A DNA stretch of 53,154 nucleotides from an uncultured Bacillota bacterium (GTDB lineage Bacteria > Bacillota > Clostridia > Christensenellales > Borkfalkiaceae), in the NCBI GenBank assembly GCA_949290895.1, contig CASETU010000020.1:1-53154 (forward strand), given 5' to 3'. Positions 2,478-38,999 of this stretch are shown in pieces. The notes beneath the pieces are model-generated. The model searched no databases, had not been told where the DNA came from, and saw only the letters and a list, made by a program, of their open reading frames with translations. The translations under genes were made by a program, and so were the position numbers. Every line of letters begins with the position of its first letter. The stretch's first letter is position 1.

Positions 2478-4382
2478 ATGAAAAAACTGATTGCTCTGTT
2501 ACTTTGCGTGGTTTTATCCATGGGTGCTTTGACGGCATGCAAAAAGACGGAAGAAGATACAGGTGACGAAGGAAATAAAGGAGAAACTGAAATGACGGAC
2601 ATCGATTTGATAAAAAACGGAAAGACGGATTATAAAATCATTTATCCCGCAAACGCAACGGAATTTGAAATGTTTGCCGTAAACGAGCTGGTTTATTTTT
2701 TCAATCAGGCAACGGGTATCAGTCTTGTGAAGATAAGCGATGAAGGCGCGGATACGTCTTCTTCCAACAAATACCTTTCCGTCGGGCAAACTTCGGTATT
2801 CAAGGCTTCTGCCATCACCGCGACGAGGGACGAACTCGGCCCGAACGGATTCAAGATCGAACGTAAGGATAACACCGTATTCCTTGTAGGAAACAAGGAT
2901 ACGGGCACAATGTTTTCCGTGTATGAGTTTTTGCGGCTTAACTTTCATTACGAGTGCTACCATAAAGACGAAATTAAAATCGATAAAAACGTAACCGAAT
3001 TGAAGCTTGCAGATTTTCACGTTTTGAAAAAGCCCGATATCGATCTGGCTTGCGCAAACTACGGAGAATTGATTTTTGATCCTACGTTTGCATATCGCCG
3101 CGGAATGTTGATCGATAAGGATATGTTTATCAACGTCGGCGGAAATTTCTGGCACAATTCTTTCAATTATCTTCCGCCGTCTACCTACGCGAAAGATCAT
3201 AGGGATTGGTATTATTACGGAAACGGGGAAAGTGCAGAGCCCACGCAGCTCGATTACACCAACGACGAAATGCGCCTTGAACTGACAAAGGTTTTAAAGC
3301 AGTATCTTCTGGATAATCCCACGCTGGAAAATATTACGATCACGCATCAGGACAATCGGCATTGGAGCGACAGTGCAAAAAATCTGGAACTGCAAAAGAA
3401 GTACGGCACGGACGCCGCATCTATGATCATTTTCTGCAATAAGGTGGCAAAGGACATCAGAGAATGGCTGAATGAAACAGATCCCGGCAGGGAAATCAAT
3501 ATCATTATGTTCGCTTATTATGCAACGGAGAAAGCGCCGACAAAGTATAATGAGTCGACAAAGAGTTACGAACCGATCGACAGCGAAGTCGTTCTCGATG
3601 AGGACGTATGCGTTTTCTATGCGCCCATCAGTGCGGATTATAATTCTTCGGCGTATTCTCAGTCAAACGTCAATATGTACAATACTTTGCAACAATGGCA
3701 AGTGCTGACGGACAGAATATTTTTATGGACGTATTCCACGAACTTCGATTATTATATGGGAATGTTCAATTCCTTCGACTCCATGCAGAGTATTTACAAA
3801 ATGGCAAGGGATGCCGGCGTGTATTATATTTTCGATCAGGGACAGTTCAACTCGAAAGTGTCTACCGGGTTCAGCCGTTTGAAAATGTATCTCAATTCCT
3901 CTTTGGCGTGGGATGTCGATGCGGATGTGAATGCGCTGACGCAAGACTTTTTCGATAATTATTTCAAAAATGCAAGCGCACCCATGAAAAAACTTTTCGA
4001 CAGCATGCGCTTACATTATGCGTATCTGCGCGATGAAACGGATATGGACAGGGGAATTTACGCGAATATCATAAACGATAAATATTTCCCTAAAGGCGTT
4101 TTGGATAACTGGATGGACATTATCGACGAGGCGTATGACAGCATAGAAGACTTGAAAAATACCGACAGCGCATTGTATCGCACGCTGGAAAACAGAATTA
4201 AGTTGGAAAGCTTAAGTATCAGATACCTACTGATAGAAATTCAGGGCAGCAAATATACGTCGAACCAGCTTTACAAAATGAAATCGGAATTCAAGCTGGA
4301 TGCCACCAAGCTCGGTATGGATCGCTACAAGGAACGCAACGGCGCGTTGAACTTCCTGTGGTCGGAATGGGGTATTTTATGA
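2478..4382 (+). CDS. DUF4838 (GH163-like) lipoprotein
   Basis: 634 residues. A signal peptide ends in the lipobox L-T-A-C21, so the protein should be lipid-anchored outside the cell. Residues about 45-170 form the N-terminal alpha/beta domain common in DUF4838 and related hydrolases (start 'DLIKNGKTDYKIIYP', then 'GTMFSVYEFL'). The rest matches DUF4838: 'THQDNRHW', 'INIIMFAYYATEKAP', 'LWTYSTNFDYY', and 'LAWDVDADVNALTQDFFDNYF' near residue 480. DUF4838 is, to my recollection, the domain of family GH163 (endo-beta-N-acetylglucosaminidases on complex N-glycans). Unlike the two other copies here it lacks the CxC/CxxC cysteine cluster after the QMD/HQD motif. GGAGG at 2464-2468 sets the start. The next gene overlaps by 4 nt (ATGA). 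Confidence 0.85.
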   Translation: MKKLIALLLCVVLSMGALTACKKTEEDTGDEGNKGETEMTDIDLIKNGKTDYKIIYPANATEFEMFAVNELVYFFNQATGISLVKISDEGADTSSSNKYLSVGQTSVFKASAITATRDELGPNGFKIERKDNTVFLVGNKDTGTMFSVYEFLRLNFHYECYHKDEIKIDKNVTELKLADFHVLKKPDIDLACANYGELIFDPTFAYRRGMLIDKDMFINVGGNFWHNSFNYLPPSTYAKDHRDWYYYGNGESAEPTQLDYTNDEMRLELTKVLKQYLLDNPTLENITITHQDNRHWSDSAKNLELQKKYGTDAASMIIFCNKVAKDIREWLNETDPGREINIIMFAYYATEKAPTKYNESTKSYEPIDSEVVLDEDVCVFYAPISADYNSSAYSQSNVNMYNTLQQWQVLTDRIFLWTYSTNFDYYMGMFNSFDSMQSIYKMARDAGVYYIFDQGQFNSKVSTGFSRLKMYLNSSLAWDVDADVNALTQDFFDNYFKNASAPMKKLFDSMRLHYAYLRDETDMDRGIYANIINDKYFPKGVLDNWMDIIDEAYDSIEDLKNTDSALYRTLENRIKLESLSIRYLLIEIQGSKYTSNQLYKMKSEFKLDATKLGMDRYKERNGALNFLWSEWGIL

Positions 4383-13114: not shown

Positions 13115-14968
13115 ATGAAAAACGCATTCAGGTTGGGGTATAACAGATATTTCGACGACAAGCAGTTTGAAGAAAATCTCGCTTTCGTCAAAGAAAACAT
13201 CGACGTTATCGACGAGTTGACGCTTTTCGTTGAGTATTCGCATCATGGATATTGGGAGCTTTCTCAGCAAAAAGAAGTCGCGCGCGTATTAAAAGACAGA
13301 ATGGAAAAATATCGTGCTGCGGGCGTAAAAAGCGTAGGGATTAACGTGCTTGCCACAATCGGACATTTAGACGAAAGCTATGATGTTTTGCCAAAGCCGC
13401 CTTTTCAAACGATGGTAGGCGATGACGGTCAGGTATCGAAGTCCTGTCTTTGTATCAACAATGCAGAGTATCTTGCTTATATAGAGGAAAGATATAAAAT
13501 TTTGGCGGAAAGCGCGCCTGATTTTATATGGATAGACGACGATTTTCGCATCGTATGGCACGGCGTGACCAATCCTTGTTTCTGCTCGAAATGTTTGGCT
13601 GATTTTTCCACGTCGGCAGGAAAAAATTTTAATCGGGAAAGTCTTGTCAAGGCAATCGCTTCGGATAAAAAAGTCAGCGATGCTTTCGATTGTTTCAGAA
13701 GAGATAAATTTACCGATCTTGCGGAAAGAATAGAAAAGAGCGTGCACGGAGTAAATGAAAATATCAATATAGGGTTTATGACCAGTCCCAACTGGACGGA
13801 AACCGTTTGGCTTGAAAAGTTTAAAGCAAAAATGGCGCGTCCGGGCGGCGGGTTTTATCATGACGAAAAACCGACCGATGTTTTGAGAAAGATTTTTGAA
13901 GTGGGAAAGCAGAATATGCTTTTGCCCGCAAATATACGCGATATTCAATATGAATTTGAAAATTTTCCTTATCAGGAATTTGCAAAATCGCAGACGATGA
14001 TCCGTTTGGAATGCATGCTTGCGCTGATGAGCGGTTGTAACGGCGTTTTATATAATGCTATGCTTAGTTACGATTATCCGCGGTTGACGGACACGGTGCG
14101 CTCCCGCGTAAAACAGTGGGATAAAATTTGCGAATATGCCGAAAACGGAAAAAATATCGGGATTTTCGGCAATCAGCAAGCATGCCTTAACTTTGGCGAG
14201 CTTGGTATCCCTTTGGCTTTTTCGGAAGACGGCGCGTCGACAATCGTTTTGTGCGGAGAAAGCGATGTGAACAAGCTGAGCGATGAAAAACTGCTTTCTT
14301 ATTTGAAAGGGGGATTGTTTTTGGACGGCGACGCATTTGCTGCGGTTGAAAAGCGCGGTTTGGCGCGTTATTGCGGAATAGTAACTAAAAAGACTTTTAC
14401 GAACGGTATGACGGAACGGCATACATCGCACCCGCTGAACGGTCAGACTGCAGGTTATGTGCGCGATATATTTACGAGTTTTTGGTTCGGTGAAAAAGCC
14501 GTTTCCGTTTATGAAACGCGCGGCGCGGAGGAATTGAGCCGACTGGAAAACATCAAGCATGAAGATATGGGGTGTTGTGCTGCGGTTTATGAAAACGAAC
14601 TCGGCGGAAGAGTGTGCGTAATGGGATACTGTTTTCCCGAATTTTTCAAAACGCGGGAAAAGCAGAAACAGTTGCAAAATGTTTTTGATTATCTCGGGAA
14701 AACGCTTCCTGCCGTATGTTACGGAAATCAACGCTTTGCCGTAACGTGCCGTGATGCCGGGCACCGTTTGATATCGGTAACCAACGTCAGCATTGATGAG
14801 GCGGATAATTTCACGTTGGAAGTGCGGGGAAGTTATAAAAATTTCTTTGCGATTGACGAAAAAGGACTGTTGCAAAAAATGGAGATTATTCGAGCGGAAA
14901 ACTGTGTGAAATTAAAGCCGAAAACGTTAAAAGCGTGGGATTATTGCATAATATTATGTGAAAAATAA
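13115..14968 (+). CDS. Glycoside-hydrolase-like TIM-barrel protein, unknown family (paralog 1)
   Basis: 617 residues without a signal peptide. I do not recognise a named family. The layout resembles GH42-type proteins: an N-terminal barrel-like region, then a middle GATase-like domain with 'GGLFLDGDAFAAVEKRGLARYCG' character (about residues 400-430) similar to the beta-galactosidase trimerisation domain, then a small C-terminal beta domain. A striking acidic motif, I140-D141-D142-D143-F144-R145, is followed by W-H-G and a Cys pair (C-F-C-S-K-C). The protein at 35116-37002 shares the motif and layout. Directly coupled to the GH36 gene (1-nt gap), so it likely acts on the same sugar in the cytoplasm. 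Function is inferred only from context. Confidence 0.75.
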   Translation: MKNAFRLGYNRYFDDKQFEENLAFVKENIDVIDELTLFVEYSHHGYWELSQQKEVARVLKDRMEKYRAAGVKSVGINVLATIGHLDESYDVLPKPPFQTMVGDDGQVSKSCLCINNAEYLAYIEERYKILAESAPDFIWIDDDFRIVWHGVTNPCFCSKCLADFSTSAGKNFNRESLVKAIASDKKVSDAFDCFRRDKFTDLAERIEKSVHGVNENINIGFMTSPNWTETVWLEKFKAKMARPGGGFYHDEKPTDVLRKIFEVGKQNMLLPANIRDIQYEFENFPYQEFAKSQTMIRLECMLALMSGCNGVLYNAMLSYDYPRLTDTVRSRVKQWDKICEYAENGKNIGIFGNQQACLNFGELGIPLAFSEDGASTIVLCGESDVNKLSDEKLLSYLKGGLFLDGDAFAAVEKRGLARYCGIVTKKTFTNGMTERHTSHPLNGQTAGYVRDIFTSFWFGEKAVSVYETRGAEELSRLENIKHEDMGCCAAVYENELGGRVCVMGYCFPEFFKTREKQKQLQNVFDYLGKTLPAVCYGNQRFAVTCRDAGHRLISVTNVSIDEADNFTLEVRGSYKNFFAIDEKGLLQKMEIIRAENCVKLKPKTLKAWDYCIILCEK

Positions 14969-26900: not shown

Positions 26901-27436
26901 CCGAGCCGTTCGACAAGAGCGACAGGAAAATCGGGGAAACGCTTGTCATTCCCGCTGCCAAGGCGTACGACGTTTTGCAGCAGGAAGCCGTTGTATTCTT
27001 ATCGGTTACCGCGCCGGACGGCAAGGCGATATGCAGCAACGTATCGATTGAAAAGGATTATGAAGTGGTGCTCGATCAGTACGGTTCGTATTCCGTGAAA
27101 TACGTTACCACCGATTCCGTGGGAAGAAGTTCCACCACAACTTACCGCGTAAAAGTGATCGATGAGATCGCGCCGACTTTACAGGTGAACGGGAATTACG
27201 AAGAAATTGTTGCGGTCGGCACGGAAATTACCGTTTGCGGAGCAAAGGCGAGCGATAACGTAGACGGCGAAATCGATGTGGAAATCATGATTTTGCGCCC
27301 CGATTCCAAATTGCTCGTAGTCAATGCCGGCGATCGTTATACGTTTGCGGAAAGAGGATTGTATACCGTGATCTACCGCGCGGTCGATGAGCAGTATAAC
27401 ATTACCCGCACGGAATTCAAGATAGAGGTAAGGTGA
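23942..27436 (+). CDS. Large secreted Ig-like / jelly-roll repeat protein
   Basis: 1,164 residues, signal peptide cleaved near 'IFA-Q'. Several Ig/HYR-like modules with 'GEY.V.Y.A.D.FGN' signatures alternate with two larger beta domains (about 280-500 and 770-960) that may bind carbohydrate. The C-terminal 350 residues match the partial protein at 1-2457 ('KIGETLVIPAAKAYDVL' against 'TIGSKAVIPAAAAYDVL'). No membrane anchor, LPXTG or catalytic signature is visible. As in the first copy, the next gene encodes a DUF4838 lipoprotein, so the two genes form a duplicated module. Likely binds the substrate for the DUF4838 enzyme. Confidence 0.78.
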   Translation: MKKKIILALLSLTLICSVSATVIFAQDQNVSARQGGEYTLVLEMYTVDNYTEGVIVKEPNGNRAEVSGGTFLVKTTGTYEIVYPDGTVKYLYSYAKRIPSEFEYSAVLESEYTAGEIVRLPKATIKNPVKTYTEYDVIVRANGEEVAKITTEIPQNGYPFKIPKAGAYTVSYVYTDVFGIEESDELSFSAVNEKILVIESELPEQISFGESLTLSAYGYYKEKQYVSKITAKTPSGKTEQIAGRKYTPEERGEYEFVFAADIEGETISQTRKVFVEYTSRSLLGNYIGITDVQSGVKLPDYSQNTGNATLVRASSSGSSFMYSKVINLREFDKNDSLIEFEMYSDGVAEASAVQVTLIDVYNEANTLTVYWWANPWSTNMSYMLVRCNGLSLGRDNESGSNLPRGENDFGTNARNTFSGYKNKNSLPFNFQYDYQDKAVYSYVLDVNTQYNILDLDNEKEIPQANLWSGFTADLVLMKVEFVTNNNAGMYITKLAGEDMCGDVIVSPKDDNLLCLTSEYEVLPDGAVGYSYRLPTVLGSNAALGEFDVTQKLYCGEEDISSQISDGAFVPKSAGEYKVEFSAKDFFGNIVTKTMEFVVNEKPNEISFDLSDDQSVIITQNYVVPPINATGGSGKIDVTAEVYFDGKLLTPDINNRYAIEKFGDLELVVTAKDFIGYTYSQTYKINIEKNYFYVDIGGVPDAVRAGSTVTFPAMKAIDYNTDTVYETALFVNGTELEGTSYVVPEDVTSLELRYTVKGFDDGEKDKVFTVKVIPKTIENQHDFLLFENAETAYLDPGLYFNPNGEEFSLKMPYPVPMENLVLGFSVNDFEKDFESLQIIFTDYYSASERVVLSISDLKEGKALLGVNGNQNSAEIEYYQNKYNSTVGMEGLEVSFEGKQYNSFEFVFKNENCRVRNASGRTLATIDTLENGDNFGGFSSGLVRVEFRLQGISGEASFILSKVGNQLFNYYINDVDYEDKDNNGALLLSEPFDKSDRKIGETLVIPAAKAYDVLQQEAVVFLSVTAPDGKAICSNVSIEKDYEVVLDQYGSYSVKYVTTDSVGRSSTTTYRVKVIDEIAPTLQVNGNYEEIVAVGTEITVCGAKASDNVDGEIDVEIMILRPDSKLLVVNAGDRYTFAERGLYTVIYRAVDEQYNITRTEFKIEVR

Positions 27437-27444
27437 ATTCGTTT

Positions 27445-29472
27445 ATGAAAGCAAAACACATTTTATTGGTTTTACTCATATTGATTTTATCGTTTTCGGC
27501 CGTGACGGCTACTTCCTGTAAGGGGAAAGAGCCGGAAATTCCGCCCGCTTATGAAGAAGACGACGGAATCGACCGCAGTCAAGTGCTCGATTATATCGTT
27601 AAGGACGGGGTCAGCGAATACACCATCGTTTACGGCGATGCGGCGAGTAGTGCGGAAGTGTTTGCCGCGTCGGAATTTCAGCTTTATGTCGGCAAGATGA
27701 CTGGCGTATATCCTTCGCAGACGGCGGAGAGCAACGTCAACTTTGACGAAAACAGCAAAATCGTCTCCGTGGGGAACACGGCTTTGCTGGAATCTATGAA
27801 CTTCGACGTGGATTATTCCGCGATGAACACCGACGGTTTTATCATAAAGACGTACGGAAAGAATGTTTTTATCAACGGTGCGAGCGACAGCGGCACGATT
27901 TACGGCGTTTATGATTTTTTGGAAAAAATATGCAACCTTAAATTTCTGGCTTACGATTATACGTATATTCCCGAACTGACGGAAATTCCCGTTTATAAAA
28001 TGGACGTTTTGGAAATTCCGGCGTTTGAAACCAGATCGTATATGTCGGGTTCTGCCACGGCGGCGGCCAACGAACTTAATATGGTGCACATGAGAATGGC
28101 AAACGATTATACCGTCATTCCCGAAGAGCACGGCGGCGGCATGAGCAATTAGTGGTATCAGGGCTATAAAGATATGCATAACTCGCTGGAATACGTAGAC
28201 CCTAAAATTTATTATACCGAAGATAATAAAGAAGCCAATGCCCATATATTTTACCGCGATAAAAACGATAAGGTTTTGGATATTTGTTATACCGACGGCA
28301 TAACGGAGGACGGCAAGCTGGATACGAGTATGCCCGTCAGTGCGGCGAAAATCGCGCTGGAATCGTTGAAAGGCTACGTGACCGACGCGGTGGAACAGGG
28401 GCTTAGCTGTAAATATTTCATGTTCGGGCAAATGGACTTAACTTCTGCGTGTTCCTGTTCGAGATGTCTTGCCGCAACAGAAAAGTACAGTCGGAGCGGT
28501 AATTTGATCCGCTTTGTGAATGTTTTGGCGGAAGAAATTCAGAAATGGGCGGATACGGCGTTAAACGGCAAAGAGGTGACGATCGTTACCTTCGCTTATC
28601 AGTATACCGATACCGCGCCCGTCAGACAATTGTCTAACGGAGAATATGAACTTTTGGACGCTACCGTAAAACCGAGAGATAACGTGTGTATCCGCCTTGC
28701 TCCTATCGAAGCGTATAATTATTGGTCGCTTTCCGATGAAAAACAAAGTCCTAAATATAATACCTGGTTTAAACAATGGAGCATAACGGGCAACAACTTC
28801 TGTCTGTGGACGTATCACACCATGTTCGCAAAATCGTATTTCTGGTATTATCCTACTTTGCCTGCTTGGCAGGAAAATCTGCGTGATTTCAGGGATATGG
28901 GCGTGAAATATATTTTAATGCAGTCCTCGCATACCGAAAAGCACGATTGGCAGGCGTTGATGGAAACGTACATTGCATCAAAACTGCTTTGGGATCCCGA
29001 CCGCGACGTAAACGCCTTGCAAAACGAGTTTATCGAATACTATTACGGCGATCTTGTTAGCGACAATATCAAGCTGTTTATGCGGAATTTTGACGAACAT
29101 TACGCCTTGCTTGCTGCGGACGGCAATTCCGGCGTTAACTTCATGCTGTGGAATCCCGCCCTGTGGAGTATGGAAAATCAGCCGTTGAACTTGCTCACGT
29201 TGCAGGACGGTATCGTGGACGATTCGCTGGAAATCATTGCGGAAAGCGATTTGCCGAGTACGGAGAAAAAATCGCTTACCGATCGGTTAAAGCGTTTGAA
29301 ACTGACTACCTTATTTATGATCATCGAAAATTATTCCGGATATTATCCGGGCGACGAGGACGGCAAAATTGCCATGGCAAACGAATTTTTTGACATCTGT
29401 TCCGAACTCGGCGTGGTGCAATATGCGGAAGGATTATCGGTGGCAAGCTTAAAGACAACGCTTTTGGGATAA
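27445..29472 (+). pseudogene. DUF4838 (GH163-like) lipoprotein gene interrupted by in-frame TAG
   Basis: Start at ATG 27445 (GGTG-type site upstream; GTG 27433 is an alternative). A lipoprotein-like signal ends 'TATSC'. The frame stops at TAG 28150-28152 after 235 residues, but the very next codons continue the protein in the same frame (W-Y-Q-G-Y-K-D-M-H-N-S-L-E-Y) to the TAA at 29470. Alignment by eye with the 29477-32182 protein places the TAG next to the conserved W, opposite a Tyr. Without the TAG the product would be about 675 residues with all DUF4838 landmarks, including Q-M-D and the CSCSRC cysteine cluster. It may be a recent nonsense mutation, a strain polymorphism or assembly error, or readthrough. 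A restart at ATG 28174 has no good ribosome site. Confidence 0.75.
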
Positions 29473-29476
29473 CGAT

Positions 29477-32182
29477 ATGATCATTGATAACATCATTAAA
29501 AACGGAAAATCCGAATATACCGTGATTTATCCGAACGAAGCCGCCGCTCCCGAAATTTTTGCGGCAAAAGAACTCGTAAAATACTTAAAACAGGCGAGCG
29601 GCGCGGAACTTTCGATACGAAAGGAAAGCGATAATATTTCGCAAAAATTCATAAGCATAGGCAAAACGCGCGCTTTTGAAGAACTCGGCATACGCCTCGA
29701 TCGGGAAGAGATGAACGACGACGGTTTTATCATCAAAACGGTCGGCAAAAATCTCTTTCTCACCGGAGCGATGCCCAAAGGTACGATATATTCCGTCTAC
29801 GATTTCCTGGAAAAATTTATCGGATTAAAATTCGTGGCGGAAGATTGCACGATCGTTCCGTCGGTCGATGTTTTGGACCTGTGCGACTGGGATATTGTGG
29901 AGATACCCGATTTTGCCATGCGCGCGTATATGTCGGGGATGACGACTTGGGGGCACGAAGAAAACATCGTTCACATGCGCATGGGGCATGAATACGCGCG
30001 CGTACCCGAGGAAATGGGCGGAAATATGTATTGGAGCGACGTACTGAAGAATTCGCACAATACGTTGGAGTACGTACCGCCCGAAATCTATTATACCGAA
30101 GAAAACAAAGCGGAAAACGCGCACATGTATTACGAAATCAACGGTAAGGTGATGGATATTTGCTTTACCGACGGGATAACGGACGACGGCGAACTGGACG
30201 AAACCATGCCCGTTTCCTGCGCAAAGGTCGCCATTGAGTCGTTAAAACGCGTGGTGTTGGCGTCTAAGCCCGATTGCAAATATTTTATGCTTGGGCAAAT
30301 GGATATTCAAAAGACTTTCTGCGAATGCAAAAGATGCGTTGCCGCCGCCGAAAAATATAAGCGGAGCGGTATTCTTATCCGTTTTGCAAACGTGGTGGCA
30401 AGGCATATTCAGAAATGGGCGGACGAAGAATTGAACGGGCGAAAGATCAATATCGTCATTTTCGCTTATCAGTATACGGAAATGGCGCCCGTTGAATGGA
30501 ATTCTCACGTCAACGCTTATGAATTGCTTTCGCCGCAGGTGGAGCCGGCAGAAAACATTTACATCCGACTCGCTCCCATCGAAGCATCATTTTACTATCC
30601 GTTTTCTCATCCGAAACAAATCCAGAAATATGCCGAATGGTCCAAACAATGGCAGGCGTGCGGACATAATTTTATGATATGGACGTATCACACCATGTTT
30701 GCGTTCAGCTTTTTCTGGTATTATCCGACGCTTCCCAGCTGGAACCGCAATATCGAAGAGTTCAAGAATATGGGCGTAAGTTATGTATTTTTACAGTCTT
30801 CGCATAACGAAAGTCAGGATTGGAAAGCTATCATGGAGACGTACATAGCTTCCAAAAAACTTTGGAACTCCAAACTCGACGTATACGATCTGCAAGCGGA
30901 ATTCAATGCGGCTTATTATTCCATTGCCGCGCCTTATGTGAACGCATTTATCGATATGCTCGATAAACATTATAAAAAACTTGCGGACGATCCCGAAGTA
31001 GGGGCGGCGTTTAACATTTACGACGGGGCGCTTTGGGATATTAAAAATATGCCCTATGAGTTTTTGCAAAAACTGCTCGGCGTGCTGGAAGAAGGCGTGC
31101 GTAAGGTGGAAAACAGCGATTTAAGCAAGAGCGAGCAAAGAGAACTTCTCAAAAGACTCAGCCGCGTAAAGCTTACGCCGCTTTATATGCTGATGTATAA
31201 TTACGGAAATTACAGAAAGAACGATATGCGCGGCAGGGCGAAAATCGCGAAACAGTTTTTCGATATTTGCGATAAGCTCGGCGTTCAGTATTATGCGGAA
31301 GGTCCGATGATCAAAGACCTGAAGGAAAAGTATTTGGACGAAAAACCCGGAAACGTTACGAAATATTCTTTCCGTTCATTGTATAAAGACCCGTATCACA
31401 TCGATATTTACCGAAACAAGGAGACGCTCAGTTATAACCACGTGCACGATTTTTGGGAATTCATGATCGTGGCGAAAGGGCGTATCTCGCTTGTCGTGAA
31501 CGGCAGAAAGGTGGAACTATGCGAAAACGAAATTTTATTGATTCGCCCGCCCCACAGGCACAGTTTGGTGCAAAGCGAGTCCAAGCCTAACTCCGAGGTC
31601 ATCAATGTTTCCGTCGTCAACGACTATATGCTGAATTTTCTCAAACAATATGAGGTTTCCGTAAAAGAATTTCAGGAACTTGCGGAAAACATCATTCACA
31701 TCAAGCTGAACGCGATACAGTCGGAAATGCTGATGGATCTCGTGCTGGAAACGGAAAAAAAGAACTATATAAACGATCCGAATCTCAACGCGTTCAAAAA
31801 TATCCTGCTTGCGGAAATCATGAAAAACGTTCTCAGAAAGAAGATGATTTCGCAAAACGGCTATCCCGAATGGATTGAAAACATGATGATCGCGATGAAC
31901 AATCCCGCGAATTACTCCATGCAGATAAGCGACTTTTATAAAATGAGCGGATACGGAAAAACGTATTGCACGAAACTCTTTACGGAAAACGTGGGAATGT
32001 CGCCCATCAAATATTTCACGCATTCGAAAATCAACTATGCGTGTATGTTGCTCGATATAACCGACAATACGATTTTGCAGATCGCAAATGAAATCGGATT
32101 TTATTCGCTTAGCCATTTCAATCATTGTTTCCTTACGGAAAAAGGAATGACGCCGAACCAGTATCGAAAACGCGGCGTCTGA
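29477..32182 (+). CDS. DUF4838 (GH163-like) domain fused to cupin and AraC DNA-binding domain
   Basis: 901 residues without a signal peptide, hence cytoplasmic. Residues 1 to about 610 are a complete DUF4838 protein, close to the interrupted gene just upstream ('FAYQYTEMAPV', 'WTYHTMFAFSFFWYYPTLP', 'METYIASKKLW', cysteine cluster C-E-C-K-R-C). Residues about 640-740 form an AraC-type cupin ('HVHDFWEFMIVAKG', 'ELCENEILLIRPPHRH'). Residues about 800-901 are the two helix-turn-helices of AraC regulators ('MQISDFYKMSGYGKTYCTKLF' region; 'ILQIANEIGFYSLSHFNHCF' region, ending 'GMTPNQYRKR'). The likely role is a transcription factor whose sensor is a glycan-hydrolase-like domain. The frame is continuous through the joins. 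Starts 4 nt after the previous gene. Confidence 0.9.
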   Translation: MIIDNIIKNGKSEYTVIYPNEAAAPEIFAAKELVKYLKQASGAELSIRKESDNISQKFISIGKTRAFEELGIRLDREEMNDDGFIIKTVGKNLFLTGAMPKGTIYSVYDFLEKFIGLKFVAEDCTIVPSVDVLDLCDWDIVEIPDFAMRAYMSGMTTWGHEENIVHMRMGHEYARVPEEMGGNMYWSDVLKNSHNTLEYVPPEIYYTEENKAENAHMYYEINGKVMDICFTDGITDDGELDETMPVSCAKVAIESLKRVVLASKPDCKYFMLGQMDIQKTFCECKRCVAAAEKYKRSGILIRFANVVARHIQKWADEELNGRKINIVIFAYQYTEMAPVEWNSHVNAYELLSPQVEPAENIYIRLAPIEASFYYPFSHPKQIQKYAEWSKQWQACGHNFMIWTYHTMFAFSFFWYYPTLPSWNRNIEEFKNMGVSYVFLQSSHNESQDWKAIMETYIASKKLWNSKLDVYDLQAEFNAAYYSIAAPYVNAFIDMLDKHYKKLADDPEVGAAFNIYDGALWDIKNMPYEFLQKLLGVLEEGVRKVENSDLSKSEQRELLKRLSRVKLTPLYMLMYNYGNYRKNDMRGRAKIAKQFFDICDKLGVQYYAEGPMIKDLKEKYLDEKPGNVTKYSFRSLYKDPYHIDIYRNKETLSYNHVHDFWEFMIVAKGRISLVVNGRKVELCENEILLIRPPHRHSLVQSESKPNSEVINVSVVNDYMLNFLKQYEVSVKEFQELAENIIHIKLNAIQSEMLMDLVLETEKKNYINDPNLNAFKNILLAEIMKNVLRKKMISQNGYPEWIENMMIAMNNPANYSMQISDFYKMSGYGKTYCTKLFTENVGMSPIKYFTHSKINYACMLLDITDNTILQIANEIGFYSLSHFNHCFLTEKGMTPNQYRKRGV

Positions 32183-32194
32183 AAAGGAGAAATT

Positions 32195-34186
32195 ATGAAT
32201 TTATTCGACAGGTTTATGGCGATAGAGGAACCCTACGGTGCGGGGATTTTCGAAGATGAGAGCGCGCCGCGCTTTGTCCGCTTGGCGAACGGTCAGAAGA
32301 GATTTTGGGAATTTGCCGATATGCCTGTTTACGGCGGCGGGAAATTGTATCCGTCGGGCAGGCGTTTTTCCGTGAAATACGGAATATATCCTTATTTTTC
32401 CCCTACATATTACGTGGAAGAAAGCGTTTTAAAACCGAAAGACGAAGCGCTGAACAAAATTGCGGTGGAGGAATTTTTCACGCTTAAATCGTTGGTTTTT
32501 AACCCGAAACTGCAAAGGCATCTCGTCGGCGGGGACGGATTCGTTCATTCCATTCCAAACTACGGGCGCGTAGTGAAAGAAGGTTTGAATTCCTATGCCG
32601 CCCGCGTGGAGAATATGCCCGAAGGGGAAATCAAACGCGGCTTGAAGATCATTCTCGACGGGATACGCATTTATCATACGCGCGCGCTGAAATTGCTGCG
32701 GGAGCAAAACGGCGATGCCGAACTCATATCCGCGTTGGAAAAAGTTCCGTTTTCTCCCGCCGAAAACATTTACGAGGCGCTTGTCTGCTGGAATTTTATT
32801 TATTATATCGACAGCTGCGATAACCCGGGCAGGCTGGATAACGATTTGAACCCGTATCACAAGGGGGAGGACGTTACTGCCGTTATTCGCGAACTTTTTC
32901 AGAACGTGGACGCAAACGACGGCTGGACCTGCGCGCTCGGACCCGATTATAACGAACTTACAAAGCAATGCCTTGTGGCGATTCGCGGGATACGGCGTCC
33001 GAACGTGGAGCTGCGCGTTACGAAAGACATGCCGCAGGAAATTTGGGATACCGCAAAGGCTACGCTTTTGAGCATGACGGGACATCCCGCTTTATATAAC
33101 GAAGAGCTTTATCAGAAAAAGCTGGCGGAATTTTTCCCCGAAATGCCCGCGGAGGATAGGAAAAAATTTTGCGGCGGCGGTTGTACGGAAACCATGTTTG
33201 CCGGCATTTCCAACGTCGGTTCTCTCGACGCGGGCATAAACCTTTTGTATATTTTGGAAGATATGCTCTATCGCAGGTTGCCCGAGTTTGCCGATTTCGA
33301 AAGTTTTTATGCGGCGTATTTGCGGGAAATCACAGCGATAAAGGACGAATTTGTGCGGGAGCTCAACCGTTACGAAAAGGACAGGGCGACATTCCGTCCG
33401 CAACCCGTGCGCACGCTCCTTATTGACGATTGCATCGACAGGAATAAGGATTTTTATGGCGGCGGAGCGCGTTGGCATTTTTCCATTCTGAATTACGCCG
33501 GTTTTGTAAACGCGGCGGATTCGCTCCTTGCCGTGAAAGAACTTGTGTTCGATAAGCGCGTTTACGGCGCGAGGGAATTTGCAAGGGAGTTAAAAGCGCA
33601 GACGGACGAGATGAAGAACGCTTTGCGGCGCTGTCCGTGTTACGGTATCGACGACGATGTCGCCGACGGTTTTGCCGCGCGTTTTGCAAGGGATCTCGTT
33701 GCGCTCGTTAAAAACGACAGGGATTATCTCGGCGGCAAGATCGTGACGGCGTCCATACAGTTTACCACCTACCTGAATGCGGGAAAGGGAATTTTGCCGA
33801 CGCCTGACGGCAGAGAAGAAAACGCGCCGCTGTGCGATTCTTTGGGCGCAATTTACGGCAAAGACCGCGCGGGGGCGGTGGCAATGCTAAATTCCGTCAC
33901 CAAACTGCCGCTGGGTGATATGATCGGAACGCCCGTTTTGAATCTCAGGTTGCAAAAAGGTTATCTCGATAAAGCGTTTGAAGGATTGGTAAAGGGGTAT
34001 TTTGCCCGCGGCGGAATGCAGATGCAAATTACTTGTATGAGCAAAGAGGAGATGCTCGATGCGCTCGATCATCCCGAACGTCACAGGAGCCTTATCGTCA
34101 GGACGGGCGGATATGCGGAATATTTCGTCAATCTGGACAGAGAATTTCAGGAAACGCTGATAAAGCGTACGGAGTTTTCCGAATGA
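32195..34186 (+). CDS. Short glycyl radical enzyme of unknown substrate (PFL-like)
   Basis: 663 residues, clearly shorter than most family members (about 780-850). The PFL-like barrel is recognised by 'RRPNVELRVTKDMP' and 'HPALYNEE'. The thiyl-radical loop reads F-C326-G-G-G-C330-T-E332: the G-C-x-E pattern of dehydratase/lyase-type glycyl radical enzymes, not the C-C pair of pyruvate formate-lyase. The C-terminal glycyl-radical motif is R-T-G-G639-Y-A, 24 residues from the end. AAGGAG precedes the start. The activase gene overlaps by 4 nt. Activity should be strictly anaerobic in the cytoplasm. The substrate is unknown; the operon suggests a sugar or sugar-derived alcohol or acid. Confidence 0.88.
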   Translation: MNLFDRFMAIEEPYGAGIFEDESAPRFVRLANGQKRFWEFADMPVYGGGKLYPSGRRFSVKYGIYPYFSPTYYVEESVLKPKDEALNKIAVEEFFTLKSLVFNPKLQRHLVGGDGFVHSIPNYGRVVKEGLNSYAARVENMPEGEIKRGLKIILDGIRIYHTRALKLLREQNGDAELISALEKVPFSPAENIYEALVCWNFIYYIDSCDNPGRLDNDLNPYHKGEDVTAVIRELFQNVDANDGWTCALGPDYNELTKQCLVAIRGIRRPNVELRVTKDMPQEIWDTAKATLLSMTGHPALYNEELYQKKLAEFFPEMPAEDRKKFCGGGCTETMFAGISNVGSLDAGINLLYILEDMLYRRLPEFADFESFYAAYLREITAIKDEFVRELNRYEKDRATFRPQPVRTLLIDDCIDRNKDFYGGGARWHFSILNYAGFVNAADSLLAVKELVFDKRVYGAREFARELKAQTDEMKNALRRCPCYGIDDDVADGFAARFARDLVALVKNDRDYLGGKIVTASIQFTTYLNAGKGILPTPDGREENAPLCDSLGAIYGKDRAGAVAMLNSVTKLPLGDMIGTPVLNLRLQKGYLDKAFEGLVKGYFARGGMQMQITCMSKEEMLDALDHPERHRSLIVRTGGYAEYFVNLDREFQETLIKRTEFSE

Positions 34187-35061
34187 AAGGAAAAATTTTC
34201 AACCTGATACGCGGCTCTACGGAAGACGGCAAAGGGTTAAGAACGGTTGTCTATTGCAGCGGTTGTTCTTTGAATTGCAGTTGGTGCCAGAATCCCGAAG
34301 GCAAAACGGAAAAACCACTTTTGTATTATGCTCATAAATGCGTCGGTTGCGGCGCATGCGTGCGGGTTTGCGGGCGCGGCTGTCATGCGATTGTTTTGGG
34401 AAAACACGTGTTTTCACGAACGAATTGTATTCGCTGCGGGGAATGTGCGCAAGTCTGTCCTGCGGGTGCGCTTGTGTTTATGCAAAGCGAAACGGAGGCA
34501 AAGGAACTCGTCGGACTGATTGCGCGGGATAAGGATTTTTTCGCGGCGTCGGGCGGCGGCGTAACTTTTTCGGGCGGAGAATGTGTTTTACAAAATGATT
34601 TTCTCGTGGAGACGTTACGCTTATGCAAGGAAAACGGCATCGATACCGCAATCGAAACGGCGCTTTTTTACGATTATTCGCTTTTGAAAAGACTGTTGCC
34701 TTATGCCGACTGTGTGCTCGCCGATTTGAAACATACCGACAGCGCGAAACATAAAGAATTTATCGGCTTCGGCAATGAAAAAATACTGACAAATTTGAAA
34801 TTGCTTTTGAAAGAAAATACAAAGACCGTCGTCCGTTTTGCATTGATACCGGGATTTAACGACGATGAAATTTCGTTGAAAGAAATGGCTTTGTTCGTTA
34901 AGGAAAACGGCGGCAGAGAAATAGAGCTTTTGAATTTCAACGATACGATAGAAAATAAATATTCGGCTTGCGGGCAAACGGTCGCAAGAAAGTTCGGCAA
35001 GGCTTTTTCGCCGGAAGAGTTCGCGAAGAAGAAGGAATATGTAAGTAAAATTTTATCTTAA
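34183..35061 (+). CDS. Glycyl radical enzyme activase (radical SAM)
   Basis: 292 residues from ATG 34183, which overlaps the TGA of the enzyme gene; the frame is open further upstream but inside that gene. The radical SAM cluster motif is C28-x3-C32-x2-C35. An inserted ferredoxin-like part has two 4Fe-4S motifs (C53/C56/C59/C63 and C82/C85/C88/C92), typical of activases for non-PFL glycyl radical enzymes. The 'FSGGE' motif for SAM binding follows. It should abstract hydrogen from Gly639 of the partner using S-adenosylmethionine. Confidence 0.93.
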   Translation: MKGKIFNLIRGSTEDGKGLRTVVYCSGCSLNCSWCQNPEGKTEKPLLYYAHKCVGCGACVRVCGRGCHAIVLGKHVFSRTNCIRCGECAQVCPAGALVFMQSETEAKELVGLIARDKDFFAASGGGVTFSGGECVLQNDFLVETLRLCKENGIDTAIETALFYDYSLLKRLLPYADCVLADLKHTDSAKHKEFIGFGNEKILTNLKLLLKENTKTVVRFALIPGFNDDEISLKEMALFVKENGGREIELLNFNDTIENKYSACGQTVARKFGKAFSPEEFAKKKEYVSKILS

Positions 35062-35115: not shown

Positions 35116-37002
35116 ATGCAAAAAATATCCATACCCGCTATATATAATTCCTATAATTACGATAGGGAAAAATTGCTTGAAATTTTAAAAAAATGCAAAG
35201 CGTTCCGATTGATGCTGGCGATACCGCGCGTCATTGAAAACGGCCGCATCGTGTCGGCGGTCGACGAAAATTTAAAGGAAGATATTTCTTTTTTTGAATC
35301 TCACGGGTTTGAGGTTTGTGTTTGGTTGGGGGAATCGATCGGGCACGGCTGGCCGATCAATGAAACGGCGGCTTATTGCAATATCGTCAGTCTTGCGGGT
35401 GAAACGGGTAATTCCGCATTCTGTCCTACGGACGAATTGTTTGTTTCCGATTTTTGCGCGTGGGTAAAAAACGTGGCGCGGGCGGGGGCAAAGCAAATTT
35501 TGTTGGACGACGATTTCAGAATGTCCATGCACGGCACGCCCGTTTGCGCGGCAAGCTGTTTGTGCGAAGAGCATTTGCGGCAATACAATGAACTTATCGG
35601 AGAACAACTTACGCGGGCGGAAATTGCGGAAAAAGTCTTTACGGGCGGACCTTCCCGCTATCGTAATGTATGGTACGACCTGATGAGAAGTACCATGTTG
35701 AATTTTGCAAAAAAAATCCGCACTGCCGTCGATGAAGTGGACTCTTCTGTGCGTGTTGGAGTATGCGCGACATACGGCATGTGGGACTTAGACGGCGCGG
35801 CTTTCGAAGATGCGGGAAAAATTCTTGCGGGAAAAAACAAGGCGTTACTGCGGCTTTGCGGCGCGCCTTACTGGGCGCGCGACGGTTATGAGTTGGCGAA
35901 CGTCATCACGCTGGAACGTATGGCTGCGGCAAGATTCAGAAAAGAAAATACGGAACTTCTGAGCGAGGGGGATACTTATCCTCGCCCGCGTACTGTTTGT
36001 CCCGCCGCATATCTGGAAACATTCGAGCAGGCGCTCGTTGCTGACGGAGGTTTTGACGGCGCTTTAAAGTATATGCTGGAATACGACGCGCCGTACGATT
36101 ACGAAACGGGATATATCGATCGCCATATAAAAAACCGTGCGCTGATCGATTCGATAGAAAAGGCGTTTGCCCAAGGGTGTTGCGCGGGATTAAGGCTGTT
36201 TGAAAACTTTCAATATCTGTGCGGCGCGGATCTTCCAAACGAAAATCCTTACGAAAATGCAAACAGGGCAAATATGCGCCCGCGGGGGATCGGTTGCAGG
36301 TTTGTTTCCGCTTTGGGACTTCCCGTCGCGTTCAACGGAGAATTTCCTGTAATCGTATTCGGAGAAAATGCAAAATACGTAACAAACGAAGATTTGAAAA
36401 ACGGGGCGATTTTGGATATTGTCGCCGCAGACATTCTGCAAAAACGCGGAACAGATGTCGGAATGAAAGCCGCTCGTAAAGTAAACGACGTTATTTTGAC
36501 GGAGCATTTTGTCGACGAAAATATCCGTGTTACAAGCGCACAGCCGGAATTTTACGATTTGGAAATTTCCGATGCTGCTTGTACGCTCACTTATTTTGAG
36601 GGAAAACAAAAACATATCGGCGCGTATTTATATGAAAATAAGGAAAAGCAGCGTTTTTTGGTGTATTCTTTCGACGGAGAAAATACCGATTCCCGCGTTT
36701 TTAAAGCTTACGCGCGCCAACGCGAGGTGAATAGCGCGTGCGAATGGCTGTGCGGGAAAAAATTGCCCGCCGTGTGTACGGGCAATCCTGCCACTTATAC
36801 TATATGTAAAATGCAGAAAAACCGTTTGTCGGTTGCATTTTGGAATCTGTATCCCGACGAAATCGTTTCGGCGCGATTTGATATTTCCGAAGCGTATACG
36901 AAAGCAAGCTGGCTCGGCGCGGAAGGGGAATTTAAGAAAAATTCCGTAGTATTTAAAAATGTCGCGGCGTATTCTTTTTGTGGTTTTGTACTTGAAAAAT
37001 AA
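35116..37002 (+). CDS. Glycoside-hydrolase-like TIM-barrel protein, unknown family (paralog 2)
   Basis: 628 residues, no signal peptide; AGGAG at 35104-35108 sets the start. Distant paralog of the 13115-14968 product. It shares the acidic motif L130-D131-D132-D133-F134-R135 followed by M-H-G and a Cys-rich stretch (C-A-A-S-C-L-C), then the same order of domains: a barrel-like first half, a GATase-like segment with 'NGAILDIVAADILQKRGTDVG', and a C-terminal beta domain. No known catalytic signature can be named. Follows the activase and overlaps the first DMT transporter gene by 1 nt (TAATG). Probably a cytoplasmic hydrolase for an imported glycan. Confidence 0.75.
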   Translation: MQKISIPAIYNSYNYDREKLLEILKKCKAFRLMLAIPRVIENGRIVSAVDENLKEDISFFESHGFEVCVWLGESIGHGWPINETAAYCNIVSLAGETGNSAFCPTDELFVSDFCAWVKNVARAGAKQILLDDDFRMSMHGTPVCAASCLCEEHLRQYNELIGEQLTRAEIAEKVFTGGPSRYRNVWYDLMRSTMLNFAKKIRTAVDEVDSSVRVGVCATYGMWDLDGAAFEDAGKILAGKNKALLRLCGAPYWARDGYELANVITLERMAAARFRKENTELLSEGDTYPRPRTVCPAAYLETFEQALVADGGFDGALKYMLEYDAPYDYETGYIDRHIKNRALIDSIEKAFAQGCCAGLRLFENFQYLCGADLPNENPYENANRANMRPRGIGCRFVSALGLPVAFNGEFPVIVFGENAKYVTNEDLKNGAILDIVAADILQKRGTDVGMKAARKVNDVILTEHFVDENIRVTSAQPEFYDLEISDAACTLTYFEGKQKHIGAYLYENKEKQRFLVYSFDGENTDSRVFKAYARQREVNSACEWLCGKKLPAVCTGNPATYTICKMQKNRLSVAFWNLYPDEIVSARFDISEAYTKASWLGAEGEFKKNSVVFKNVAAYSFCGFVLEK

Positions 37003-37916
37003 TGGAAATATTGTATTATATTTTAACTGTATGCACGGCATTGTTTCTTTCGCTGGGGGCGCTTGGCAAAAAGTATAGTAATGCGTACTCCGCGAGAGAA
37101 AAATTTTTGAACATTTCCGCTTTTTCTTTGTTGGTGGCGATAATTATGTGGTTGATTTTTTCGTTTTCCTACGTAAAAATCAACATCACGGTATTTTTAT
37201 ATTCGGCGGTTTTCGCAGTCAATTTTATAATTTGCAGTTTTGCGCTGTACGCGGCTATGGAACAAGGCAGTTTGTCGGTAACGAATCTGATAAATTCGCT
37301 GAGCCTCGTCATTCCCACGCTTGCGGGCATAGTGTTTTGGAACGAAGAGTTCAACGCGTGGTTATTTTGCGCGGCTCTGGCGTTGATGATCGCATCGTTG
37401 TTGCTTATCTTACTGAAAAAAGAGCCGATTGCGGACGGAGGAGCGGAAAGTGCCGTAAAAACGGGAAAGGCAAAGTTGGTCTTTTTCAACGTCGTCGCTT
37501 TTATTACCAACGGATTGTCGAGCGTGATTCAGAAAAGCGAACAAATCGCCATGGACGGACAGGGCGTTTTTTCCATGACGGCTTTAAGTTTTTCGCTTGT
37601 TACCGTATTCGCTTTTTTAATCTATCTTATCTATTTTTTTATAGAAAAAGAAAATTCTTTTAAAAAAGACTTTATAACGCTTTATTTCAACAAAAAAAGC
37701 ATATTGCTGAATGCGGCGGGTGTCGGACTTGTTAATTTAGCCGTTACGTTTTTGGCAACGCGTGTTGCGGGCGTCTTTTTGTATCCGTGCGTGCTTGGCG
37801 GTTCGGTAATCGTCACAACGCTGTTTTCCGCTCTTTTGTTGAAAGAAAAAATACGTTTGCGCATGGCGGTCGGTGCAATGCTCGGCGTTGCCGCTATCGT
37901 AATGTTCAGCTTGTGA
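37002..37916 (+). CDS. DMT-superfamily (EamA-like) transporter 1
   Basis: 304 residues, about ten membrane segments arranged as two similar halves, as in EamA/DMT transporters. The end of the second half ('LYPCVLGGSVIVTTLFSALLLKEKI') is typical. No own ribosome site is visible; the start overlaps the previous stop as TAATG, so translation is probably coupled. Pairs with the next DMT gene, perhaps as a heterodimer that moves a sugar-derived product. Confidence 0.82.
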   Translation: MEILYYILTVCTALFLSLGALGKKYSNAYSAREKFLNISAFSLLVAIIMWLIFSFSYVKINITVFLYSAVFAVNFIICSFALYAAMEQGSLSVTNLINSLSLVIPTLAGIVFWNEEFNAWLFCAALALMIASLLLILLKKEPIADGGAESAVKTGKAKLVFFNVVAFITNGLSSVIQKSEQIAMDGQGVFSMTALSFSLVTVFAFLIYLIYFFIEKENSFKKDFITLYFNKKSILLNAAGVGLVNLAVTFLATRVAGVFLYPCVLGGSVIVTTLFSALLLKEKIRLRMAVGAMLGVAAIVMFSL

Positions 37917-37947
37917 TTTTTTGTCGGTTGTCGGGGGGGGGTGTTGT

Positions 37948-38847
37948 ATGACCGATTATATCTTTTTGTTTTCCGCCTGCGTTTGCATTGCAATGCAATT
38001 TACTTTCAATAAGTTTTACGAAAAAAAAGCGGTGGAAAAAGTTTGGCATCTTCTGTTTTTTCCGGTAATTACCGCTGTCTTTTCCGCGGTGCTTTTTTTC
38101 GCATTAAATAAGTTCGGGGTATCGTTCGGCGCGTTCAGCGTCGCGCTTGCGGCGCTGAACGGATTGATTTCCATTTTGTCTTTGCTTTGCGGGATTGCCG
38201 TTGTAAAACGCGGCAGCGTTTTGGTTTATACCGTTTTCATGATGCTCGGGGGAATGTTTCTTCCGTATTTATACGGAATGATTTTTCTCGGAGAGCCCGT
38301 AAAGGCAACCCGTATTATCGGAATATTGATCATGATTTTTTCGCTTTGGCTTTCCGTTGTTCCGGAATGGAAACAAAAAAAAGCGAGCAAAGATAAATTG
38401 TTTTATCTTTTGTGCATAGCCGTTTTCTTGCTGAACGGAAGCGTGAGCGTAATTTCCAAAGCGCATCAAATTCACCCGTCGGCGCTTCCCACGGGAGACT
38501 TTCTCGTTTGGAATTACTTTTTCCAGTTGCTGTTTGCCCTTATCTGTTTTGCGTTATATTTTATATGTCTAAAAGACGGGGCGAAAGAATTTGTACCGGA
38601 AAAAAGATATATAAAAAACGCGCTCTTGCTTGCGCTGGGATATTCCGTATTTTGCGGACTCGGATATTTTTTACAGTTGGTTGCGGCAAAAAATCTGGAC
38701 GCGTCGCTTTTGTATCCCGTAGTAACGGGCGGAACTATTTTTTTCACTACCGTTTCCGCACGGCTGTTTTTCAAAGAAAAAATCACGGCGATTATGATTG
38801 TCAACATGGCTTTCATTCTTGTTGCCATGATAGTTTTTATAATATAA
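37948..38847 (+). CDS. DMT-superfamily (EamA-like) transporter 2
   Basis: 299 residues from ATG 37948. An upstream in-frame TTG (37921) is rejected because the glycine-rich extension is not protein-like. About ten membrane segments; the ending ('LYPVVTGGTIFFTTVSARLFFKEKI') matches the partner gene. The region just upstream is a run of nine G (37933-37941) that must serve as, or overlap, the ribosome site; see findings. Last gene of the long operon, followed by a terminator. Confidence 0.82.
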   Translation: MTDYIFLFSACVCIAMQFTFNKFYEKKAVEKVWHLLFFPVITAVFSAVLFFALNKFGVSFGAFSVALAALNGLISILSLLCGIAVVKRGSVLVYTVFMMLGGMFLPYLYGMIFLGEPVKATRIIGILIMIFSLWLSVVPEWKQKKASKDKLFYLLCIAVFLLNGSVSVISKAHQIHPSALPTGDFLVWNYFFQLLFALICFALYFICLKDGAKEFVPEKRYIKNALLLALGYSVFCGLGYFLQLVAAKNLDASLLYPVVTGGTIFFTTVSARLFFKEKITAIMIVNMAFILVAMIVFII

Positions 38848-38967: not shown

Positions 38968-38999
38968 GTCGGGCAGTTTTTTTAACTGCTCGACTTTTT
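38968..38999 (+). terminator. Terminator of the 21-kb operon
   Basis: 11-bp stem with one G-U pair (38968-38978 and 38984-38994), T5 loop, then TTTTT. Confidence 0.85.

Follow-up and report, generated by a model that had tools for sequence, protein, structure and literature searches.

This locus raises a question of substrate: on what does a short glycyl radical enzyme (GRE), encoded with its own activase in an apparent glycan operon, act? We analysed it within a stretch of 53,154 nucleotides of DNA (the window) from an uncultured bacterium of the clostridial family Borkfalkiaceae. The first-pass annotation had argued for a new, likely sugar-derived substrate from the neighbouring genes.

The GRE and its activase

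The GRE, its activase, the fusion gene just upstream and the remaining features of the likely operon are on the forward strand. The GRE gene (32195..34186) encodes 663 amino acids of a short subfamily, recognised by Pfam, by full-length relatives and by superposition of an AlphaFold2 model. Its ATG start codon has a ribosome-binding site, AAGGAG (32184..32189), five bases upstream. Pfam places the PFL-like domain PF02901 at residues 252-526 (1.3e-45) and Gly_radical PF01228 at residues 553-645 (1.4e-16, above cut-off). The Cys loop C326-G-G-G-C330-T-E332 (33170..33190), which reads KKFC-GGG-C330-T-E332-TMFAG and is also clear in the family alignment, holds the thiyl Cys and the CXE glutamate. 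The glycyl motif R-T-G-G639-Y-A (34100..34117; in context LIVRTGG639YAEYF) lies in the Gly_radical domain, and both Gly638 and Gly639 are invariant in the family. The enzyme, loop and motif described in the first-pass annotation are thus all present. Its remark on length stands in part: 663 residues is short relative to other GREs, but not unusual for the family, whose members have about 650-730. The homology is not a chance match, given full-length Treponema relatives with 51% identity and the rest of a 30-sequence clade. The only other GRE found in the same genome is an ordinary pyruvate formate-lyase (PFL) on a separate contig (C165). The microcompartment shell protein PF00936 was not found in this genome (86% complete), in agreement with the earlier statement that microcompartment genes are lacking.

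The activase gene (34183..35061) overlaps the GRE stop codon by 4 bp and encodes a radical SAM protein of 292 amino acids. We chose the ATG at 34183 over an upstream TTG at 34033 because the ATGA overlap start fits the match to TIGR02494. This general GRE-activase model is passed with 274.9 bits (cut-off 174.35), and none of the activity-specific activase models among the NCBIfam profiles is passed. The radical SAM motif CX3CX2C (CSLNCSWC, residues 28-35; 34264..34287) is followed by two ferredoxin-like CX2CX2CX3C motifs, at residues 53-63 (34339..34371) and 82-92 (34426..34458), so that the coupled activase with two extra 4Fe-4S motifs noted earlier is real.

A clade apart from the characterised GREs

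Most family members are 30-51% identical to the window GRE over their full length, with the highest values in Treponema (51%) and in Clostridia (43-48%); others occur in genomes of Chloroflexi, Armatimonadota, Victivallales and Omnitrophota. Identities of 40-50% are below the threshold that separates most functionally distinct GREs (PMC11528403), and the family may therefore hold several activities. Identity to reference GREs is only 19-28%. In trees of 62 GREs, all 30 members of the family group together (FastTree support 1.0, ultrafast bootstrap 100), in a clade that contains no characterised enzyme in either tree; deeper nodes mostly have support of 44-78, and the branching order outside the family clade is poorly resolved. 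Several tree references were taken from PDB alignments, those for CutC and streptococcal PflD covering the C-terminal part only, and for IseG, HpsG, HplG, the arylacetate decarboxylases and the succinate synthases the comparison used profiles, PDB sequences and folds rather than the trees. Neither the profiles nor the two trees group the window GRE with any characterised GRE tested; such a grouping would have spoken against the novelty first proposed for it.

No NCBIfam equivalog was matched by the window GRE, all scores being far under cut-off. These results speak against its belonging to the anhydrohexitol-6-phosphate lyases PflD/YbiW (PRK09983, 129.9 vs 1109), which also form a separate clade; the trans-4-hydroxyproline dehydratase HypD (NF043068, 152 vs 1100), whose Asp278, Ser334 and Thr645 are absent; the choline TMA-lyase CutC (TIGR04394, 125.1 vs 1050); the sulfopropanediol dehydratase/sulfolyase HpfG/HpsG (NF048009 and NF048011, 118.3 and 119.4 vs 1000); the arylacetate decarboxylases HPAD/IAD (NF033715 and NF033718, 81.6 and 112.5 vs 1150 and 1100); and PFL (TIGR01255, 61.3 vs 994.2), the window GRE having Gly329-Cys330 in place of an adjacent Cys-Cys pair.

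For close relatives in cultured organisms, we found nothing above 28% identity in a plasmid collection. A Parabacteroides distasonis plasmid carries an uncharacterised GRE of 759 amino acids with an activase (L103:8143-14747), in a row with genes for ROK, ManNAc-6-P epimerase, a sugar O-acetyltransferase and an AraC protein. A literature search, outside which many subscription papers lay, found no GRE tied to galacturonate, aldonate or pectin and no description of the family clade. The aminoacyl radical enzymes (PMC11528403) likewise include uncharacterised, eliminase-like GRE branches with varied neighbourhoods; their radical residue is Ala, Ser or Thr, whereas that of the window GRE is Gly.

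Active site and predicted fold

We read the active-site columns from an alignment of the 30 family members. The family retains the eliminase residues at His118, Cys330, Glu332, Cys413, Arg540 and Gly639, of which Cys330 and Glu332 are invariant. His118 (codon 32546..32548), the equivalent of His164 in glycerol dehydratase (GD) and His160 in HypD, is present in all members covering the column, both in this alignment and in a HMMER alignment to GD. The Cys loop is therefore of the eliminase type claimed for it. The Thr within it, described as an uncommon replacement of Val, turns out to be a signature of the family (Thr331, 97% conserved). The CXE motif is common to GRE eliminases (PMC7077986, PMC8473560), and mutagenesis showed both its Glu and the beta-1 His to be essential in HypD (PMC7077986). 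From this and the eliminase comparison we infer that Glu332 and His118 would play the same roles in the window GRE.

The contacts to known substrates are another matter. The columns of GD His281/Ser282, GD Phe333, HypD Asp278 and HypD Ser334 are gaps in every member, Phe523 stands at the HypD Thr645 column, and the GD Asp447 column is occupied by Leu344. Asp345 may be the equivalent of GD Asp447, though the alignment places it one residue further on. The deleted His281/Ser282 columns and the Leu at the Asp447 column speak against glycerol/propanediol dehydratase as an identity for the window GRE. Invariant or nearly so, and specific to the family, are Tyr52-Pro53, Asp206, Asp209, Gly342, Asp345 (28 Asp and 2 Glu among the 30 members), Arg406, Phe523 and Gly638. 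With the catalytic columns kept and the known substrate columns gapped, the family appears to have an eliminase engine without the known substrate contacts. The trimmed loops, together with Asp206, Asp209, Asp345, Arg406 and Phe523, suggest a pocket shaped differently from that of glycerol or proline-type dehydratases, and perhaps a larger one.

An AlphaFold2 model of the GRE made with 11 family members (pLDDT 85.8, pTM 0.88) superposes on GD and propanediol dehydratase (PD) over 634-641 residues. By VIA-align, 634 of the 663 residues align with PD 5i2g at 2.3 A (Z 33.6); the other Z values, among which differences of 1 or less count as ties, were 33.5 for GD, 33.0 for PflD, 32.1 for YbiW, about 32 for CutC, 31.9 for HypD, 29-30 for decarboxylases and succinate synthases, 25 for PFL and 18-19 for ribonucleotide reductase. 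In this model the ten-stranded GRE barrel is complete, with no sign of the missing helix set that the first-pass annotation had considered, and the short length is thus explained by trimmed surface and pocket loops rather than by a broken barrel.

Three characterised groups come closest. GD and PD share with the window GRE the whole fold, the Cys-X-Glu loop, the beta-1 His, the glycyl domain and a ferredoxin-type activase; however, the window GRE is only 24% identical to them and about 120-180 residues shorter, lacks the His281/Ser282 segment, has the family-specific Asp206, Asp209, Asp345 and Arg406, and has no microcompartment. PflD and YbiW (1,5-anhydromannitol- and 1,5-anhydroglucitol-6-phosphate lyases) share the fold and CXE, but identity is 22-28% and we noted no PTS or fructose-6-phosphate aldolase genes nearby. 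Their activity on anhydrohexitol phosphates does offer an earlier example of a GRE whose substrate is a sugar-derived ring (PMC12441222). HypD resembles the window GRE in CXE and in the His160 equivalent, yet is 24% identical, its Asp278 and Ser334 being deleted and its Thr645 replaced by Phe.

The operon in the window

A fusion of GH67N, DUF4838, cupin and AraC domains (29477..32182, by Pfam) ends 12 bp upstream of the GRE; it is a probable regulator, and AraC genes adjoin the GRE elsewhere in the family. Beside it, two frames at 27433-28152 (GH67-N) and 28174-29472 (DUF4838) look like one split gene, and a further DUF4838 protein is encoded at 2478-4382. Downstream of the activase, the same likely operon continues with a 628-amino-acid protein of unknown family (35116..37002) and ends with two EamA-type (DMT) transporter genes (37002..38847, by Pfam). 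A terminator-like hairpin with an 11-pair stem and a T tail follows (38968..38994), found in a scan for terminators and promoters that performed near chance overall. The 628-amino-acid protein has no match in Pfam, NCBIfam or PDB, and further profile searches were likewise empty. Neither these searches nor a two-sequence model (pLDDT 40.7, not used) support its being a glycosidase. It has a paralog in the window at 13115-14968 (24% identical, also without a Pfam or PDB match), and DDDF and C-x-C motifs of the pair are conserved in homologs from the window's taxonomic family.

The first-pass annotation had rested the sugar substrate on these neighbours and had proposed a test of co-occurrence with DUF4838 or the GH-like family. 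The inference found no support on these grounds. A genome of the same genus (L119) has orthologs of the 628-amino-acid protein and the first EamA protein, paired and with 54% and 59% identity, without the GRE. Of 16 genomes with the GRE, 12 had DUF4838, as did nine of 16 without it (Fisher p = 0.46). Beside the GREs of the other family loci we found neither DUF4838 nor the 628-amino-acid protein, and none of these loci has the 628-amino-acid/EamA pair. We therefore rejected both proteins as obligate partners of the GRE, and the glycan operon of the window lends little weight to a sugar substrate.

Distribution and neighborhoods of the family

Among genomes close to one clostridial relative, 15 of 196 had the family GRE, as did two of 147 close to the Treponema relative and many close to an environmental relative. 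None of the four same-genus genomes searched has it, and it is rare in the phylum of the window, where a sample of 398 genomes yielded it only in the genome of the window itself. The GC content of the GRE gene is 0.507, vs 0.42-0.47 for its operon neighbors, which together with the lack of a same-genus ortholog may mean recent transfer. In genomes related to that of one environmental locus (L041) the subfamily is part of a large GRE expansion, with matches at E 1e-70 in 57 of 201 and up to five per genome; these paralogs, of about 690-880 amino acids, are largely without characterised relatives. One family GRE (L044:986-3124) is split over two frames by an internal TAG, through assembly error or decay.

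Across 52 loci, the only genes recurring widely within 4 kb of the GRE were those for the activase (13 of 52, that is, 12 loci besides the window) and AraC proteins. No metabolic partner is common to most loci, and the family may accordingly hold several substrates. Individual loci do offer leads towards sugar acids, as distinct from a measured enrichment over random loci. A FAH-family hydrolase, the GRE and a second GRE stand in a row in L147 (4003-9231), and the same set occurs with an activase in L040 (7437-12052) and L044 (232-6172). The second GRE has 791 amino acids in L147 and 724 in L044; the corresponding frame in L040 has 251 amino acids and only the glycyl domain (truncated or resembling a spare part). 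A large upstream gene, GH123-like by Pfam in L040, is common to L040 and L147. In L132 the GRE is followed by genes for a GntR/FCD regulator, a 2-hydroxyacid dehydrogenase, an aldehyde dehydrogenase and a FAH protein, and in L141 it adjoins LacI-like, enolase-superfamily, class II aldolase, PfkB kinase and KDPG-aldolase genes. An MR_MLE gene is near the GRE in L039, GH28-type genes are found in L080, L082 (by likeness to L080) and L090, and Zn-alcohol dehydrogenases in L087 and L088. A sugar-derived substrate thus stays the better guess, on the strength of the loci of other members rather than of the window neighbors.

Discussion

We favor, at somewhat better than even probability, the view that the window encodes an active eliminase-type GRE of an uncharacterised subfamily, whose substrate is polyhydroxylated and probably derived from a sugar or sugar acid. 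Within this, we observe the anatomy and the conservation, carry the chemistry over from characterised GREs and guess at the sugar-type substrate. In the mechanism we propose, the activase, with SAM and its 4Fe-4S clusters, would take a hydrogen from Gly639, and the glycyl radical would generate a thiyl radical on Cys330. The thiyl would take a C-H hydrogen at a carbinol carbon in the substrate while Glu332, tuned by His118, would deprotonate the hydroxyl; a neighboring leaving group, most likely water, would be expelled, and the product radical would regain a hydrogen from Cys330 to give a carbonyl product.

A possible objection is that the enzyme is an eliminase acting on something other than a sugar (an amino alcohol, a hydroxyproline analog, a sulfonate or another diol), the sugar genes being incidental in genomes that degrade polysaccharides. 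That no sugar enzyme is common to most loci, that related genomes often have DUF4838 whether or not they carry the GRE, and that the GH-like/EamA pair of the window is separable from it would all fit; but the operons with FAH, enolase-superfamily and KDPG-aldolase genes around divergent members, the absence of the HypD pocket residues and the low HpsG/HpfG scores leave us regarding this as unlikely, though deserving of serious attention. Decarboxylation, or C-C cleavage or formation, is a less probable alternative still. CXE is not unique to eliminases, being found also in arylacetate decarboxylases such as 4-hydroxyphenylacetate decarboxylase, and in the tree the subfamily lies far from every characterised enzyme. 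Against such chemistry are the weak HPAD and IAD scores, the lack of a PFL-like adjacent Cys pair, the conserved eliminase His and a fold closer to diol dehydratase than to the decarboxylases, succinate synthases or PFL.

A divergent form of a known activity, either glycerol/propanediol dehydratase or 1,5-anhydrohexitol-6-phosphate lyase, would agree with the nearest structures (Z 33.0-33.6) and the best sequence matches; we nevertheless consider it very improbable, given the 22-28% identity, the position outside the known clades in both trees, the altered GD substrate columns and the low PRK09983 score. Least probable of all is a window copy that is in decay and without activity, or that serves as no more than a radical spare part. 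It does differ at three near-invariant sites (561 P->A, 562 T->V and 641 S->A) and is missing from the four same-genus genomes searched, but its frame is open over the full length, all catalytic residues are kept, the overlapping activase is intact and the ribosome site is good.

Returning to the eliminase acting on a sugar-type substrate, we tentatively suggest, as a narrower and rather doubtful version, that the family comprises radical dehydratases of sugar acids (of aldonate or uronate type) that would start the anaerobic catabolism of plant-glycan fragments, with two GREs feeding a FAH-family hydrolase in some lineages. Characterising GREs has repeatedly brought to light surprising anaerobic reactions in microbes of the gut and of sediments. 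The subfamily described here is common to rumen and hindgut Clostridia, Treponema and free-living phyla, is outside every NCBIfam equivalog and appears to have a remodelled pocket; its recurring set of FAH hydrolase, GRE and second GRE provides a concrete entry point to the substrate.
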